The notes beneath the pieces are model-generated. The model searched no databases, was not told the DNA's origin, and saw only the letters and a program-made list of their open reading frames with translations. Positions 52,027-60,191 of a stretch of 64,000 nt of DNA are shown here, piece after piece. Each line of letters begins with the position of its first letter. Positions within the stretch are counted from its first letter, which is position 1. This DNA is from Pararhizobium sp. IMCC21322. Lineage in GTDB: Bacteria; Pseudomonadota; Alphaproteobacteria; Rhizobiales; GCA-2746425. The DNA is taken from contig NZ_CP132335.1 in the NCBI RefSeq assembly GCF_030758295.1, forward strand, positions 1,836,412-1,900,411. The letters run 5' to 3'. Position numbers and translations under genes: made by a program.

Positions 52027-52172
52027 ATCCACACATTTTCCAGGGCCTGAACCCAATTGGATAACGCAGTCTTAGGGTGTTCGCGTCGCATTGCTGTTCC
52101 CGGTTAGCATGTGATTCACTTCATTTTGGTAGCCTGCGGTCCGAGAATTCTGATGACCCAGGACAATCCAGT

Positions 52173-54260
52173 ATGCTGAGTTTATTGAGTTACATTGTTT
52201 ATGAGCACAATCTGGTATTTTTGATACTGGCTGTGATGACCCTTGGTTTGGGGTCTGTCGTGACGATGAAATTATTTGCGCGGATGCGGCGTACCGAAAA
52301 GGATGTCAGGCAATTATGGCTGATCCTGGCAGGTCTTATTGGTGGCGGCACAATCTGGAGCACTCATTTCGTTGCCATGCTGGCTTATGAGAGCAATCTC
52401 ATTTTAGGGTATGATCCGGTTCTTTCCATAATATCACTGCTTCTCGTCGTCGCCACGACAACACTCGGCTTTTATGTCGCCTCTCTAACTCAGCGGACAT
52501 ACCTTATTGAAATCGGCGGTTTGATTCTGGGGCTCGGTGTCGGCCTTATGCATTACTCCGGAATGGCAGCGATCCACTTGTCCGGTGTTTATCACTGGGA
52601 CACGACAGTCGTTGTGTTCTCTATCCTGTTCGGCGGCGGGTTTGGTGTTGTCGCACTCAATCGAATTTCGCGTCCGGTGACCCGTTTTTGTCAGCAGGGC
52701 GGCACAGTGGCGTTTTGCCTCGCAGTGGCCCTGATGCATTTTACCGGAATGTCCGGGTTCACGCTCACACCTTTAAACATTGATCTGGAAGTCACCGAGC
52801 TGATTTCGGAAGAGATTCTGGGCACTGGTATTGTGATTGTGATGGCCTTGTTGTTTTTGACGACATTCATCACCAGCACGATCGATCTTAAAAACGCCGA
52901 AGCGACATCGGAACATTATAAGCATTTGGCTTTGCACGATCCGCTGACAGGCGTTGCCAACCGTCTTGGTTGTGAGCAGTATTTGACCAAGGTGCTCTCC
53001 AGAACGGGTGATTCAACAACCAATGTCGCGGTTCTTTCCGTAGATCTCGACCGCTTCAAGAACGTGAATGATGTTCACGGCCATGCTGCGGGCGATCATC
53101 TGCTGCGCACAATATGCCAGCGTGTCACCGACATATTGGGAGATGGCGAGGTGTTTGGCAGATTTGGAGGCGACGAATTCATTGCCGTGAAAAGTAAAGT
53201 CTTTACGGAACGTGATGCGTTGGAGTTTGGCCACAGGATACTGGATTCAATTCGCAAACCGGTTGTCTGGCAGGAGGCGATCTTTGAAATGACCGCCAGT
53301 ATCGGATTCTCGTTGTTTCCGCGCGATGGCATTAAGCCCGTTGAACTGATGGAGAAAGCTGACCTGGCCATGTACAGGGCAAAGACGCGGGGCAGAAACT
53401 GTGCCGTTGGCTATGACGAGAAAATGGATACAGCTGTTAAAGAGCGGACTGCCTTGGCGATGGATCTTTCCAGTGCCATCGAAAACGACCAGTTGGAAGT
53501 CTATTATCAGCTTCAGAATAATGCGAGCACGCGCAATATCAGCGGCGTTGAAGCTCTGCTGCGCTGGCATCATCCACAACGAGGCATGGTGCCACCGGAC
53601 ATATTCATTCCGATAGCAGAAGAAACAGGTTTGATCACGGCTCTGGGCAACTGGGTTCTGCATCGGGCTTGTAAAGAGGCGTGTGAATGGTCGCTTCCTG
53701 TCAATGTTGCTGTGAACGTGGCACCGAAACAGATTTGTGATCCCGAATTCCCCGCAACAGTTCATGAAACGCTGCTAAAGACCGGCTTGTCGCCCGCACG
53801 GCTGGAACTGGAAATCACCGAGAGCGGAATTATCTCAGATACCGCACAAACGCTTCATATTATTCGCCAGTTGAAGAACCTCGGTGTGAAGATTGCCATG
53901 GATGACTATGGAACCGGCTATTCATCGCTGTCGACACTGCAAAACTTCCCTTTTGATAAAATCAAGATTGATCGGGAATTTGTGAAAGAAATTCACACCA
54001 ACAAGCACTCCTCGGCAATCATTAGATCGACGGTTATTCTGGGAAACAGCCTGGATATCCCTGTCCTTGCTGAAGGCGTGGAGACAGAAGCTCACCTTAA
54101 ATTCCTGCACGAACAGGGTTGTCAGCAGGTCCAGGGCTTTTTGTTCGGAAAGCCGATGCCGCATACAGACCTTCAAGCCATACTGGATTTGCAGAATGGA
54201 CTGGAAAACGTGAGCGAGTTTCCAAAAGTCGAAGAAAAACGTGCGCTCAGAGCATCCTAG
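52173..54260 (+). CDS. MHYT-GGDEF-EAL cyclic di-GMP protein
   Basis: A 695-residue inner-membrane protein. The N-terminal MHYT sensor (about residues 1-235, seven helices) has three MHYT-like motifs: STHFVAML, LMHYSGMAA and LMHFTGMSG, proposed to sense oxygen, CO or NO via a metal. The GGDEF domain retains GGDEF with DLDRFKNVNDVHGH (active-type synthase). The EAL domain retains EALLRWHHP, the DDYGTG loop and LAEGVE, so phosphodiesterase activity is possible too. The ATG at 52173 is the first before the sensor. Both catalytic signatures appear intact, so net activity is not predictable. Confidence 0.94.
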   Translation: MLSLLSYIVYEHNLVFLILAVMTLGLGSVVTMKLFARMRRTEKDVRQLWLILAGLIGGGTIWSTHFVAMLAYESNLILGYDPVLSIISLLLVVATTTLGFYVASLTQRTYLIEIGGLILGLGVGLMHYSGMAAIHLSGVYHWDTTVVVFSILFGGGFGVVALNRISRPVTRFCQQGGTVAFCLAVALMHFTGMSGFTLTPLNIDLEVTELISEEILGTGIVIVMALLFLTTFITSTIDLKNAEATSEHYKHLALHDPLTGVANRLGCEQYLTKVLSRTGDSTTNVAVLSVDLDRFKNVNDVHGHAAGDHLLRTICQRVTDILGDGEVFGRFGGDEFIAVKSKVFTERDALEFGHRILDSIRKPVVWQEAIFEMTASIGFSLFPRDGIKPVELMEKADLAMYRAKTRGRNCAVGYDEKMDTAVKERTALAMDLSSAIENDQLEVYYQLQNNASTRNISGVEALLRWHHPQRGMVPPDIFIPIAEETGLITALGNWVLHRACKEACEWSLPVNVAVNVAPKQICDPEFPATVHETLLKTGLSPARLELEITESGIISDTAQTLHIIRQLKNLGVKIAMDDYGTGYSSLSTLQNFPFDKIKIDREFVKEIHTNKHSSAIIRSTVILGNSLDIPVLAEGVETEAHLKFLHEQGCQQVQGFLFGKPMPHTDLQAILDLQNGLENVSEFPKVEEKRALRAS

Positions 54261-54508: not shown

Positions 54509-55351
54509 ATGCGCGATAAAATCAAGAACCACAATCAGCTGGATTGGCGGGATCTCCGCAATCCAAACAATGTTCTACCCCATCGGGAAACGGACAAAGG
54601 CACTGTTGTTGTACCGCTTGTTCCCGCTGACAATACTGAAGGTGCCAATACGAGGCCGGCATCGTCCGAAATGCGCGGCGGGCCTGGCTTTCGTGTAAAC
54701 ACGCAGTTTGAAAGTGTTTCGGTCGCGCAGATCAAACAATTGCGGGAATTTGAAACGCCCGAGATTTCAGATGCGCTCAACCGCATGTTCACGATGGATC
54801 CGGCCATTCGTAATGTGGTGAATGAAGAAGCGCTCTACGGCCCGGCAATCACCGTGAAAGTCTTCCCCGGTGACAATCTGATGGTTCACAAGGCTTTGGA
54901 CATTGTAAACCCTGGTGATGTTATCGTTGTGGATACAAGCGGTCTGCCCCGCAATGCCTGCGTTGGTGACATGATTGGCAACAAGGCCAAACATCTGGGT
55001 GTGGCCGGATTTGTGATTGACGGGCTGGTGCGAGACTTGTCCGGGCTACGCGAGATCGGCCTTCCGGTCTATGCAACCGGCATTACGGCCTTTGGCCCTC
55101 TGCATCGGGGACCTGGCGAATTGTGCCATTCCATTTCCTGCGGCGGCATTGTCGTGAATGCGGGCGATGCGATTTGCGCCGACTCCAGTGGCATTGTCGT
55201 GGTCAACAAGAACTTTGTGACAGACACGATCAGCCATCTGGAAGATCAGCGCAAGAGCCTTGAGGATTACACGGCCAATGTCAAAAAGGGTAAATTCTCC
55301 AACGAGTGGGTCGACAAGCAACTTAGCTTTGACGGCTGCCTGTTTGAATAA
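54509..55351 (+). CDS. RraA-like / HMG-aldolase-family protein
   Basis: A 280-residue protein whose C-terminal two-thirds match the RraA / 4-hydroxy-4-methyl-2-oxoglutarate aldolase fold: YGPAITVKVFPGDNLMVHKA, GDMIGNKAKHLGVAGFVIDG and VRDLSGLREIGLPVYATG (the G-D-x-x-G and D-G-x-x-R-D active-site loops). A roughly 75-residue N-terminal extension, rich in polar residues, is unlike the usual family start. Enzymes of this fold cleave or decarboxylate 2-oxo-4-hydroxy acids or oxaloacetate using a divalent metal. It opens a five-gene operon. Exact reaction unknown. Confidence 0.85.
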   Translation: MRDKIKNHNQLDWRDLRNPNNVLPHRETDKGTVVVPLVPADNTEGANTRPASSEMRGGPGFRVNTQFESVSVAQIKQLREFETPEISDALNRMFTMDPAIRNVVNEEALYGPAITVKVFPGDNLMVHKALDIVNPGDVIVVDTSGLPRNACVGDMIGNKAKHLGVAGFVIDGLVRDLSGLREIGLPVYATGITAFGPLHRGPGELCHSISCGGIVVNAGDAICADSSGIVVVNKNFVTDTISHLEDQRKSLEDYTANVKKGKFSNEWVDKQLSFDGCLFE

Positions 55352-55366
55352 TCCGGACGGGACTCG

Positions 55367-56602
55367 GTGTCAGATATCAAGCTTCAAAACGCAAAGGCAA
55401 ATCCCATCGCGGCCAAAATCTGGTCGTGCTGGTATCGCTTGCGATTCTTCATGGATGTCCCATCCATATTGAGGCTTCTGCGTTACCGTAAACTGCGTCA
55501 GACATACTATGATGCGCTTTGGAGTGAAGCTGCAAAGAACATCGAAGCGGACATCGTTCTGAATTCCTTTGGAATGACCCGGATCAGCAAGGCTGGCTGG
55601 AGCACCTTTGTCCGGCAGCATGAAATGATGTTCGACAGTCCGCTGATGCTGAACCTGATGGGCAACAAGGCGTTGACCTATCAATTGCTAAGTGATTTGG
55701 GGGCACCGATTGTGCCACATCTCATCGTGTCCATGGCGCAGTTGGACAAGGCCAGAGGGTTTTTGGCCTCTCACAGCACGATCGTTGTAAAACCCGCCAG
55801 CGGCACCGGTGGCGGCCGAGGCGTGACAACGGGCGTTAAGACGGAAGGCCAACTGATGGCCGCCGCAAAGCTCGCCGCCCGATCTGACCGCAATCTGATT
55901 GTCGAAAAACAGGTTGAAGGGCAGTCATACCGGCTGTTGTTCCTTGATGGCCAGTTCATCGACGCCATTCGTCGCGATCTACCGGTCCTGATCGGTGACG
56001 GGCAATCGAACCTGCGCCAATTGATCAGGCAGGAAAACAAACGCCGTGAACATCAATTGCCCATGCGCGCACTAAGTCCGTTGGCAATCGATAAGGATAT
56101 GAAAAACTGGATGATGGCCAATGATATGCGCCTCTCCGATGTGTCGCCGAATGGTGAAGCCATACAAATCAAGCGCGCGACCAATGAAAACGACAGCAGC
56201 GGCAATGTGAATGTTACCCAATTGGTCAATGAAGATATTGTTTTGCGTTGCGCAGAGCTGGTGCAGAATCTGGGCGTAAAATTCGCAGGCGTTGATCTGA
56301 TATGCCAGGATATCGCTGGGTCATTCTCGTCAGAAAACTGCTATGTCGGAGAGGTCAACACCACTCCCGGTCTTCATCATCATTATCTCATCGCCAATCC
56401 AATTGACGGAAATCCTGTTGCAGAAATCGCGCTGGATTATCTGTATTCCCAAAAAATGGGCATCATGACTTCAGACAATCCGACCCACTCAGGTCTTTCC
56501 CCCGTGATCTCTGAAACGCAAAGCAAAACCCCGATCAGTGCAGAACAGGCAAATCAACGACCATCTGTTGCAAAGAGGGTTCTTGCTGATGAGCTCCACT
56601 GA
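55367..56602 (+). CDS. ATP-grasp ligase, cyanophycin-synthetase-like
   Basis: A 411-residue ATP-grasp carboxylate-amine ligase. The nucleotide loop is VVKPASGTGGGRGV (about residues 140-153), followed by VEKQVEGQSYRLLFLDG (about 179-195) and PVLIGDGQSNLRQLI (about 206-220), the pattern of cyanophycin synthetase and GshAB-type ATP-grasps. The metal-binding end is GVDLICQD with YVGEVNTTPGLHHHY. It lacks the Mur-ligase half of cyanophycin synthetase. The N-terminal 90 residues are unusual. GTG start 15 nt after the RraA-like stop. The last 14 bases overlap the next gene. Substrates unknown. Confidence 0.88.
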   Translation: MSDIKLQNAKANPIAAKIWSCWYRLRFFMDVPSILRLLRYRKLRQTYYDALWSEAAKNIEADIVLNSFGMTRISKAGWSTFVRQHEMMFDSPLMLNLMGNKALTYQLLSDLGAPIVPHLIVSMAQLDKARGFLASHSTIVVKPASGTGGGRGVTTGVKTEGQLMAAAKLAARSDRNLIVEKQVEGQSYRLLFLDGQFIDAIRRDLPVLIGDGQSNLRQLIRQENKRREHQLPMRALSPLAIDKDMKNWMMANDMRLSDVSPNGEAIQIKRATNENDSSGNVNVTQLVNEDIVLRCAELVQNLGVKFAGVDLICQDIAGSFSSENCYVGEVNTTPGLHHHYLIANPIDGNPVAEIALDYLYSQKMGIMTSDNPTHSGLSPVISETQSKTPISAEQANQRPSVAKRVLADELH

Positions 56603-57818
56603 TCTGCAGGCGTCGTTCGAAAACTGGGATGTGTCTGCGCTGGACAAATCCACACCTGTGCTCATTCTGGGTGGCAGGGAAAATTCACTATCCCTTGTCA
56701 GACGATACGGCGCTGTCGGAATAAAAACACGCGTGTCTGGACCATCTGATTGCTGGGGCATGAATTCGCGTCACTGTCACCAGAAATTGCCCATTCCGAG
56801 GGGTGTTTCTGACGCTGAATACTGGCACGACCTTCTTCTATCAGGCGCCAACACAAATCTGCATGGCAGCCTGTTGATCGGTTGCAGCGATTTCGCTCTC
56901 GAGTTTCTGGCCAATAACAGAACAGCTCTGGAACAGAATTATGTGCTGGATCACGCCAATTCTGAAATACAATTGGCGCTTTTGGACAAGCGCGAAACGT
57001 TGAAACTGGCTCGATCTGCCGGAGTTGCCACTCCGCAGTTCTGGGATGTCGAAACCGAAGCAGATCTTGAAATCGTTCGCCAATCCGTCTCGTTTCCAGT
57101 CATGGTCAAGCCGGTTCTATCGCACGAATTCATCAAAGTGTTTGGCCGCAAACTGTTCATCATCGAAATGGAATTTGATGAACTGGCTGAGAAAGTCAGA
57201 CTGTCCTGGGCCAAAAAGCTGGATGTCATGGTGATCGAGATGATCCCCGGGCCGGATTCACTGCTGAGCAGCTATTACACCTATATGGCTGACGATCATC
57301 AGCCATCTTTCGATTACACAAAATGCATCATCCGCAGATTTCCGCTCAATCGCGGACTGGCCTGTTACCACCAAAGCAAGTGGATGCCTGAAACGGCAGC
57401 AGTCGGTAAACAGTTATTCGAAGGGATTGGGTTTACCGGCTTCGGCAATGTCGAGTTTAAGCGCGACCCGCGCGACAACGTATTGAAGATCATTGAATGC
57501 AATGCACGCTTTACCTCCGCACAGGAGTTGATCGTGCGTGCCGGAGCGCCGATTGACTTCATCTATTATTGCAAGGCCACCGGGCAGCCAGCACCGACAT
57601 TCAAGGACTACAATCAGAAGCTGACTTTCTGGTATGCGCTGCGGGATTTTCTGGCCTTTCTTGAAATGCAAAAGGCCGGGAAAATCACGGCAGGACAATG
57701 GATCAAAAGCCTGTTCCCTTTGAACCATATTTCACCGCTTCATAGCCTGTCCGATCCATATCCCAGTTTTGCAGCGCTCATTACGCGGGTTGAACAAACG
57801 ATAAAGAGACTGCTGTGA
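56589..57818 (+). CDS. Second ATP-grasp ligase, carbamoyl-phosphate-synthase-like group
   Basis: A 409-residue ATP-grasp protein of a different branch from its neighbour. It begins with a Rossmann-like preATP-grasp fold (TPVLILGGRENSLSLVRRYG). The ATP-grasp part runs through MVKPVLSHEFIKVFGRK, VMVIEMIPGPDSLL and the metal-binding GNVEFKRDPRDN plus IIECNARFTSAQELIVRAG. It resembles D-aspartate-ligase-like enzymes that ligate an amino acid or carboxylate. The ATG at 56589 overlaps the previous gene by 14 bases. A helical tail ends near the Ldh2 start. Substrate unknown. Confidence 0.85.
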   Translation: MSSTDLQASFENWDVSALDKSTPVLILGGRENSLSLVRRYGAVGIKTRVSGPSDCWGMNSRHCHQKLPIPRGVSDAEYWHDLLLSGANTNLHGSLLIGCSDFALEFLANNRTALEQNYVLDHANSEIQLALLDKRETLKLARSAGVATPQFWDVETEADLEIVRQSVSFPVMVKPVLSHEFIKVFGRKLFIIEMEFDELAEKVRLSWAKKLDVMVIEMIPGPDSLLSSYYTYMADDHQPSFDYTKCIIRRFPLNRGLACYHQSKWMPETAAVGKQLFEGIGFTGFGNVEFKRDPRDNVLKIIECNARFTSAQELIVRAGAPIDFIYYCKATGQPAPTFKDYNQKLTFWYALRDFLAFLEMQKAGKITAGQWIKSLFPLNHISPLHSLSDPYPSFAALITRVEQTIKRLL

Positions 57819-58855
57819 CCCGTGATCGTGTCACCGCCACTGATCTGGAAGCCTATGTTTTGCGCCTGTTTGCAGCCCTGTCCGTTGAGGAAAAGCAGGC
57901 CCGATCCGTAGCGGCCAACATGATCTGGAGCGAACTGGTGGGACGTGAGAATTTCGGTGTTCTGCGCATCCCTATCCATGTGAAGCGTTTGCGCGCTGGG
58001 GTGCTGAACCCGCAAAGCAACCCTCACTTCGAGCGCACCGGAACAAGTGCAGGCGTTTTGAATGCGGAAAATGGATTTGGCTATTATGCCGGAGACCTTG
58101 CAACACAACACGCCGTGGATCTGGCGCGGGAGACCGGCATTGGCATTGTCGGCGTAAAGCACAGCAATTTTTTTGGAACAGGTGCCTACTTCGCCGCTCA
58201 GGCCGCAGACAAGGGCATGCTCTCGCTGGTCATGAGCAACTCATTTCCCAAAGTGGTGGCTCATGGCGGCCTATCTGCCGTTCTTGGCACCAACCCTTTC
58301 GCCTTTGGAGCGCCACGCGAAAATGGCGATCATCTGCTCGTCGATTTTGCCACATCATCCTTGGCAGGCTCCACAGTGCGGGAGTATCTGTCCAAAGGTG
58401 AAGCTCTGCCGCAAGGACTCGCAATCAGGCCGGATGGTCAACCCGAAACGGATCCGGCAAAAATCGGTGAGGCGGCGCTGCTACCCTTTGGCGGTGCAAA
58501 GGGATACGGGCTGTCTTTGATGGTGGAAATCCTGTCCGGTATTCTGAGCGGCGCAGGGTTTTCCGACGGGGTTAAATCGACCTATAGCAACTTTGCAGAC
58601 AACAGCGATAACGGCCACTGCGTGATTGTGATCGACGTGGAAAAATTCATGCCGCTGGCCGATTTCTTTGCGCGATTTGAAGCCTTTAGAGCGCTTCTGA
58701 AAGCGTCAAGTTCCGAAGCAGAAGTCCTGCTTCCTGGAGAAATTCGCTGGGCGAACTTCAAAGCCAATAGCGAAAACGGGTTGGATATTCCGCAAAAAAT
58801 CCAAGCTGAACTGGCTGCCCTGTCCGCAGAATTCAACATACCGACACCCTGGTAG
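57815..58855 (+). CDS. Ldh2-family (malate/lactate-type) NAD(P)-dependent oxidoreductase
   Basis: A 346-residue protein of the Ldh_2 family, which includes L-sulfolactate, ureidoglycolate and 2-hydroxyacid dehydrogenases and cyclic-imine reductases. The catalytic His and nucleotide site are seen in GVKHSNFFGTGAYFA, followed by SNSFPKVVAHGG and the loop LPFGGAKGYGLSLMVEILSG. It starts GTG at 57815, overlapping the ATP-grasp stop as GTGA, and ends 7 nt before the flippase gene. Probably makes or removes a 2-hydroxy-acid or imine intermediate used by the ligases; inference. Confidence 0.9.
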   Translation: MTRDRVTATDLEAYVLRLFAALSVEEKQARSVAANMIWSELVGRENFGVLRIPIHVKRLRAGVLNPQSNPHFERTGTSAGVLNAENGFGYYAGDLATQHAVDLARETGIGIVGVKHSNFFGTGAYFAAQAADKGMLSLVMSNSFPKVVAHGGLSAVLGTNPFAFGAPRENGDHLLVDFATSSLAGSTVREYLSKGEALPQGLAIRPDGQPETDPAKIGEAALLPFGGAKGYGLSLMVEILSGILSGAGFSDGVKSTYSNFADNSDNGHCVIVIDVEKFMPLADFFARFEAFRALLKASSSEAEVLLPGEIRWANFKANSENGLDIPQKIQAELAALSAEFNIPTPW

Positions 58856-58862
58856 GCACGCG

Positions 58863-60191
58863 ATGATGCCGAAACTTGCCAGTTTGCTTTCCACCCTGTT
58901 CGGCACGTCATTCTTCCTGACGGTGGCGCGGCTTGGTGGCGCGGGTACAGGCATCATTCTACAGATATTGATCGCAAGGTTTTATGGTGCTGATGTGCTG
59001 GGCACCTATTATGTGGCGTTGAGCCTTGGCGGTATCCTGTCAGTCTTTATCTCGATGGGATATCCGTGGATTGTCGCACCCATCCTTGCCGATCATGAAG
59101 CAGACAGTCATTCGACCAGCCTTAAGGCATTCCTTCAATTGGTTCGCAAGGATGCTTTGCTTCTGACAGGCCTGTTCAGCATCCCGATTGCGTTGCTGAT
59201 ATGGCTGTATCCGGAAATGGCCACTGACAAACGTTACGCATTGCTGATTGGTCTGGCCACGGCTCCCGTCTATCTGGTGATGCGGCTATGCGGCGGCATT
59301 GCAAACGCCATGAAGTTCTTTCAATTGGCCAATCTGCCGGAGCTGTTGTTCAGGCCGGTGCTGACGCTCTGTTTTGTGGCGGCAGCTTTGGCCTTTTCAG
59401 TGCCGATTGGCTCCGTTTCAATAGTCACGCTCAATTTTCTGATTGTCGTCGCCCTGACAGTCTGGATGGCATTGGCGTTACGCCAAAAGACCCGTTCTGA
59501 ATTTGTCGGTGCTGCAGGCGATGCTCCTCTGTCCGGCCAGGAGACGTCAAAACTCAGACGGCTCGCTGTTCCGATGATCTTCTCCACCTTGTTCGTCAAT
59601 ATGTTCGCGGACATGGATATCTTGATGATCGGGCTGATCCTGCCGGTTGACGAAGCGGGTATCTTTGGCGTTGCCATGAAAATAGCGGCCTTGCTGGTCT
59701 TTGCTGTTCAGGTCACCCACCAGATCCTGTTGCGCGATGCCGCCAACGCACATCTGGCGGCAGATAGCCAGAAAATGCATCGGATCATTGGAAAGGCCAA
59801 TGTCTTTGCAATTGTCTCCAGCATCGCATCACTGATTGGCCTGCTGCTCTTCGGGAAGTTTGTTCTGGGTCTCTTCGGCCCGGAGTTTCAGGCAGCCTAT
59901 GTCTGCCTTCTCGGATTGATCATAGCCCAGATCATTCGAGCCTCAGCAGGCCCTGCAATTCAGATATTGATGATCACCAAAAACCAGCGCGCCGGTATAC
60001 CGGTCTATATCTGCAGCACAGTCCTGCTCTTTGTCAGCAATCTGGTGCTGGTCCCGCTCTTCAAATATGAAGGCGCGGCAGCAGCGGTCATCATTACAAC
60101 CCTCTTCTGGTCTGTCTGGCTGAACCATCTGGCAAAACAGAAAACCGGGTATCAGGTGTCCATTTTCGGCAAATCCAGACGGGTACACTAA
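58863..60191 (+). CDS. Polysaccharide-type flippase / MATE-like exporter
   Basis: A 442-residue integral membrane protein of the polysaccharide-biosynthesis (Wzx/MATE-like) superfamily, with about twelve to fourteen hydrophobic helices (for example ILQILIARFYGADVLGTYYV, LMIGLILPVDEAGIFGVAMK, AVIITTLFWSVWLNHLAKQ). The helix-2 motif FYGADVLGTYYVALSLGGI is the usual pattern of Wzx-like proteins. It is last in the five-gene operon, so the product of the ligases may be carried across the inner membrane by it. It ends tail-to-tail with the MDR gene (stops overlap). Confidence 0.85.
   Translation: MMPKLASLLSTLFGTSFFLTVARLGGAGTGIILQILIARFYGADVLGTYYVALSLGGILSVFISMGYPWIVAPILADHEADSHSTSLKAFLQLVRKDALLLTGLFSIPIALLIWLYPEMATDKRYALLIGLATAPVYLVMRLCGGIANAMKFFQLANLPELLFRPVLTLCFVAAALAFSVPIGSVSIVTLNFLIVVALTVWMALALRQKTRSEFVGAAGDAPLSGQETSKLRRLAVPMIFSTLFVNMFADMDILMIGLILPVDEAGIFGVAMKIAALLVFAVQVTHQILLRDAANAHLAADSQKMHRIIGKANVFAIVSSIASLIGLLLFGKFVLGLFGPEFQAAYVCLLGLIIAQIIRASAGPAIQILMITKNQRAGIPVYICSTVLLFVSNLVLVPLFKYEGAAAAVIITTLFWSVWLNHLAKQKTGYQVSIFGKSRRVH

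Follow-up and report, generated by a model that had tools for sequence, protein, structure and literature searches.

A conserved operon with two ATP-grasp ligases and an atypical Ldh2 homologue: a candidate module for surface-glycan decoration

Five adjacent genes of Pararhizobium sp. IMCC21322, encoding an RraA-like protein, two unlike ATP-grasp ligases, an Ldh2-family homologue and a flippase, form a module that is real, widely conserved and biosynthetic, and for which decoration of a surface glycan is, in our judgement, a somewhat probable role. Bacterial polysaccharides often bear amide-linked amino or hydroxy acids, some of them antifreeze or antigenic, and few of the enzymes that join these groups are known; a compact module conserved in many phyla provides concrete candidate genes for such enzymes. 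No description of an RraA, ATP-grasp and Ldh2 gene set was found among open papers, in agreement with an earlier sequence-only reading of this DNA, which had recognised no known cluster. Related sets may be mentioned in the amidoligase-operon survey that Iyer and colleagues published in 2009.

Operon layout and genomic setting

The window (the whole stretch of 64,000 nucleotides analysed here) comes from a genome of 5.25 Mb assembled as a single contig. The operon consists of five open reading frames on one strand, listed below together with two codons of gene D that are discussed later:

54509..55351, + strand: gene A, RraA-like protein (HMG/CHA-aldolase fold), 280 aa; PF03737 match at 7e-43
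55367..56602, + strand: gene B, RimK/cyanophycin-synthetase-like ATP-grasp ligase, 411 aa; TIGR02068 match at 4e-44, far under the cut-off
56589..57818, + strand: gene C, second ATP-grasp ligase, 409 aa, ATG start; from profile match and AlphaFold model
57815..58855, + strand: gene D, Ldh2-family oxidoreductase homologue, 346 aa, GTG start; PF02615 match at 2e-98
57953..57955, + strand: codon of F47 in D, the position of AllD His44; from alignment
58169..58171, + strand: codon of F119 in D, the position of AllD His116 (general base); from alignment
58863..60191, + strand: gene E, flippase of the MOP superfamily (Wzx/polysaccharide-transporter type), 442 aa; PF01943 match at 7e-8

Genes A and B are separated by 15 nt, B and C overlap by 14 nt, C and D share a 4-nt GTGA overlap, and D and E lie 7 nt apart; an alternative GTG start of gene C is located at 56538. 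The sequence-only reading had given the coordinates, the strand and all four spacings correctly, and its family calls for A, B, D and E were borne out by the profile scores. The composition of the operon resembles that of the remainder of the window, and in a scan for promoters and terminators, promoter-like sites were no more numerous than in shuffled sequence.

The operon is flanked by amino-acid and sugar uptake genes, and a gene for an MHYT-GGDEF-EAL cyclic-di-GMP protein (52077-54260) is located about 250 nt upstream on the same strand. Positions 1-54300 of the window also carry a gene of the DMSP lyase family (PF16867), as well as LUD-domain, CCG and FAD-oxidase genes typical of lactate or glycolate oxidation. 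No glycosyltransferase was found in the operon, nor among 25 of the 41 families listed for positions 1-54300, and the two Bac_transf genes of the source genome lie about 0.65 Mb from the operon. No meaningful match to defence-system models emerged, the sole one, a weak match of E to BrxA (16.7 bits), being dismissed.

Conservation of the gene set and its polysaccharide context

With C as query, 297 genomes of the same order, in a collection that holds just five genomes of the source organism's family, yielded 12 close C places in 10 other genomes (45-70% identity), in addition to distant homologues. The arrangement A-B-C-D-E, in one order and on one strand, was found at six loci (L033, L034, L035, L039, L040 and L041) and is shared by several families of the order, while two further loci (L037, L043) show A-B-C-D. 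The operon is not a chance assembly, since its gene order and orientation persist in other species, genera and families whose proteins are 35-83% identical. Strains of Roseovarius, Henriciella and Maritimibacter are among the culturable relatives that carry the module. A pattern query with the single protein C gave no matches against the genome contigs and an alignment query was required; the scan of the collection with the C alignment retrieved 80 loci from many phyla, in which an A-B-C core, mostly accompanied by D, is present in Alpha- and Gammaproteobacteria, Planctomycetes, Acidobacteria, Ignavibacteria and others. Only Alphaproteobacteria closely related to the source organism have gene E in the operon, and E is therefore an addition to the core rather than part of it.

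Neighbours were counted at the 53 loci where C has 4 kb or more of sequence on either side; these loci were selected by C alone, its neighbours playing no part in the selection. A was found near C at 43 of these, B at 44 and D at 30, and none of the three at four loci, all four values being solved from a tally that mixes two kinds of keys. Pairwise identities between loci were correlated among A, B, C and D (r 0.58-0.84, values reached by none of 500 permutations), as expected if the set has been inherited jointly, with a contribution from shared species history. The genes around the second ATP-grasp ligase are thus conserved together, and the grouping proposed in the sequence-only reading survives comparison across genomes. 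Distant C homologues of the same order (about 21-30% identity, including L044-L050) and plasmid homologues from Priestia and Acetoanaerobium were set aside as outgroups; where the surroundings of distant homologues were read, A, B and D were absent. Some neighbour clusters in GC-rich loci proved to be antisense shadow ORFs and were dropped.

The closest sister species (G003) retains the locus in decayed form (L148, 8215-10233): B and C are gone, A is broken, D is reduced to its final 70 residues and E is still open. Its E is 83% identical to that of the window and its flanking proteins are mostly 88-98% identical; the transport genes on the flanks are intact despite the broken module, and the GGDEF/EAL gene is missing from the place just upstream of the operon. 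Together with the lack of C in two other species of the genus, this decay indicates that the bacteria can do without the module, in keeping with a product such as a surface decoration or specialised metabolite. Given that E persists here without intact A-D, it may serve a separate function, or its decay may simply lag behind.

In distant phyla the neighbours of the module include GT4 glycosyltransferases, MOP flippases, Wzy_C, Wzz/BY-kinase and Bac_transf proteins, as well as polysaccharide deacetylases, MBOAT and FemAB/GNAT proteins. Under conservative clustering of the neighbours, at least one gene of these kinds, E being counted among them, was found at 32 of the 53 loci, and none of the scored glycan clusters at the other 21, at least one of which (L116) does have a flippase according to Pfam. 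The ignavibacterial locus L108 comprises, in one run, a flippase, Wzy, a GT4, A-B-C-D, an oxygenase-like gene, a second GT4, a GT4-deacetylase, an asparagine synthase and a FemAB-like protein. A small recurrent neighbour with a conserved HKD...H motif and an Arg, resembling Fe(II)/2-oxoglutarate oxygenases, was observed at L082 (7416-8408), L033 (12633-13313) and about 20 other loci; it is absent from the window genome, and neither a Pfam family nor a clear relative in the PDB was found for it.

Predicted activities of the five proteins

Gene A belongs to the RraA/HMG-CHA aldolase family (146.8 bits against PF03737, cut-off 24.5), and its closest solved structure is the HMG/CHA aldolase 3noj. 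It shares with LigK and 3noj the family fold, by homology, and the D-X20-R-D signature (D154, R175, D176), of which the first Asp is present in 59 of 62 relatives and the RD pair in all 62; we take these residues, following the literature on 3noj, to be the metal/pyruvate site. Unlike these aldolases, A represents a distinct subfamily with an LHRGPGE motif and a biosynthetic gene context, and it scores below the equivalog cut-offs (108.6 bits for LigK/CHA aldolase, cut-off 304.5). Its relatedness suggests that A has aldolase or decarboxylase activity.

Both proteins that the sequence-only reading had called unlike ATP-grasp ligases were confirmed as such, with their catalytic residues kept. 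B aligns over about 270 residues with the ATP-grasp half of cyanophycin synthetase (CphA) and RimK-type enzymes, and its PDB relatives are CphA ATP-grasp halves; the ATP lysine and Mg-binding residues (K142, D310, E329, N331) are kept in at least 95% of 70 sequences. Unlike CphA, B (only 411 aa) has no Mur-ligase half and reaches 150.8 bits against the equivalog TIGR02068, far under its cut-off of 850. C was modelled with AlphaFold from 65 sequences (pLDDT 93.9, pTM 0.91), and full-length structural matches to the model include PurK, biotin carboxylase and, among L-amino acid ligases, 3vot (Z 23-27). The predicted fold is that of an ATP-grasp ligase and leaves the substrates unspecified. Conserved residues include K134, K174, E217, E289, E303 and N305, the last three of which, the Mg-binding residues, are invariant in the 65 sequences. 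The closest profile group of C is CPSase-like, although its score against the equivalog PRK12767 (37.7 bits) is below the cut-off of 218, and its PDB sequence matches are VanA/Ddl-type ligases only, confined to the ATP-binding stretch. No specific tie to D-aspartate ligase was seen for C, which the sequence-only reading had labelled D-aspartate-ligase-like.

The kinship of C to VanA invites comparison with VanH-VanA, in which a 2-hydroxyacid dehydrogenase is likewise paired with an ATP-grasp ligase (D-lactate dehydrogenase and D-Ala-D-Lac ligase). Unlike the module, that pair has a dehydrogenase of a family other than that of D, no aldolase, no second ATP-grasp and peptidoglycan as its target. 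Six loci from KSB1, Calditrichia and a deltaproteobacterium (L072, L074, L075, L084, L087, L089) contain B and C only, several of them with MBOAT and GDSL-type proteins, which raises the possibility that the minimal core consists of these two ligases. At L065 (6785-11161) and L038 (8701-12383) two copies of C were observed inside one module, which suggests a third ligation in some species.

D is a member of the Ldh2 family (330 bits against PF02615, cut-off 38.8), homologous along its length to the ureidoglycolate dehydrogenase AllD and L-sulfolactate dehydrogenase. For AllD, His116 has been proposed as the general base, the H116A variant is inactive and Arg48 is essential, and His44 and His116 have been stated to be invariant across the family (PMC3527362). 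In alignments to 1xrh, 1v9n and 1vbi, D keeps the GTNP region and Arg48 (as R51), whereas both histidines are replaced, His44 by F47 and His116 by F119. In 47 relatives of D, among them a few apparently ordinary Ldh2 proteins, an SNFFG-like motif occupies the second site almost without exception, and NFG, NHG, NQG or NYG stands at the first. Full-length Ldh2 proteins of the genus other than D, about 30% identical to it and including a paralogue in the source genome, retain both histidines. The loss of two residues described as invariant makes the reaction of D uncertain: D would either work as a dehydrogenase through another acid/base residue or perform different chemistry, and plain 2-oxoacid reduction is doubtful. 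A homologue of this kind gives an opportunity to probe for new chemistry in an enzyme family already studied well.

D is present at 41 of the 59 loci that have A and C. A dehydrogenase with NAD_binding_2 and DUF1932 domains, in which a conserved lysine is retained, lies near A or C at 10 of the 59, all without D, and no locus among the 59 has both; in a planctomycete, a D-2-hydroxyacid dehydrogenase immediately precedes A. Because different dehydrogenase folds occupy the same place, the step would appear to be a redox reaction on a small acid. Beside or near D, a neighbour with a GINT1_N domain, possibly with a formyltransferase-like N-terminal part, was observed at about 13 loci (e.g., L065, 12071-13864; L064, 12257-13849).

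E scores 32.7 bits against Pfam Polysacc_synt (PF01943, cut-off 28.2) and matches the O-unit flippase-like model NF041503 at 8e-6, under the model cut-off; no sequence relative was found for it in the PDB. The export step assigned to the flippase in the sequence-only reading agrees with this polysaccharide-type affiliation, but E is not a constant member of the module, given its restriction to close Alphaproteobacteria.

Proposed role and alternatives

In the glycan-decoration pathway that we favour, A and D (or, elsewhere, the unrelated dehydrogenase) would make or adjust a 2-oxo or 2-hydroxy acid, as the sequence-only reading had suggested; the enzyme types fit this supply, but D, lacking both histidines, is not a typical Ldh2. 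B and C would activate carboxylates with ATP and form two successive amide-type bonds, attaching this acid and/or an amino acid to a lipid-linked glycan unit. The acceptor group on the unit might be a sugar carboxylate or an amino sugar, and E, in the source organism, would flip the decorated lipid-linked unit to the periplasm. The substrates, the bond made by each ligase, the lipid-linked acceptor and E as carrier are our inference. That the module, widespread and undescribed, with a histidine-less Ldh2 or an unrelated dehydrogenase, carries out a two-bond acyl decoration of a new type on bacterial surface glycans, with D chemistry new to its family, is a possibility we put forward tentatively.

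In Campylobacter, the Cj1438 protein has an ATP-grasp domain that amidates capsule glucuronic acid (PMC11800379), and marine polysaccharides carry amide-linked malic, R-2-hydroxyglutaric and lactic acids as well as amino-acid amides of uronic acids (PMC3210612, PMC5852497). By analogy, these examples render the proposed chemistry plausible without pinpointing the product. The C-terminal amidoligase of C. jejuni Cj1438 resembles the module by role, being an ATP-grasp that forms an amide (capsule glucuronamide) within a surface-polysaccharide pathway; its ATP-grasp is TupA-like and fused to a glycosyltransferase. To our knowledge, it has no RraA-like, second ATP-grasp or Ldh2-like partner. We count against glycan decoration the lack of a glycosyltransferase in the operon, the distance of the two Bac_transf genes, the 21 loci without scored glycan clusters, the missing histidines of D and the persistence of E in the sister species without intact A-D.

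The first of these points would also fit a soluble pseudo-dipeptide or depsipeptide, composed of a 2-hydroxy acid and amino acids and exported by E as a free small molecule. This product is in keeping with two ATP-grasp ligases, with the closeness of the C fold to the L-amino acid ligase 3vot and with the ABC-transporter genes that adjoin the operon at L034 and L035, and yet we consider it unlikely, as E comes from a polysaccharide-flippase family, in which we know of no small-peptide exporter, and relatives of A-D are located in polysaccharide clusters. Both products had been offered in the sequence-only reading: the surface glycan gains from the clusters of the relatives, whereas no positive evidence emerged for the free pseudo-peptide.

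It is rather improbable that D performs imine (opine-type) chemistry, in which reductive amination would join an amino acid and a 2-oxo acid before B or C attaches the product to a glycan. The imine reductase DpkA, one of the solved relatives of D, belongs to the Ldh2 family, and D has lost the histidines that act as acid/base on carbonyls. However, the proposed acid catalyst of DpkA is also a histidine (PMC3527362), so that the double loss alone does not point to imines, the dehydrogenase replacing D retains a conserved lysine, and direct evidence of an imine substrate is lacking. Even less probable is a polyamide capsule or storage polymer (cyanophycin-like or of poly-amino acids) built by B and C with E as helper: the resemblance of B to one half of cyanophycin synthetase speaks for it, but B lacks the Mur-ligase half, falls far below the CphA cut-off, and A, D and the dehydrogenase replacement would be left unexplained.

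Finally, catabolic operons commonly include RraA-like and Ldh2-like enzymes, and uptake genes flank this one, but a degradative or nutrient operon, whose nearness to glycan genes elsewhere would be incidental, is very improbable, as a flippase and two ligases that consume ATP are anabolic components and the flanking transport genes of the sister species are intact where the module is broken.
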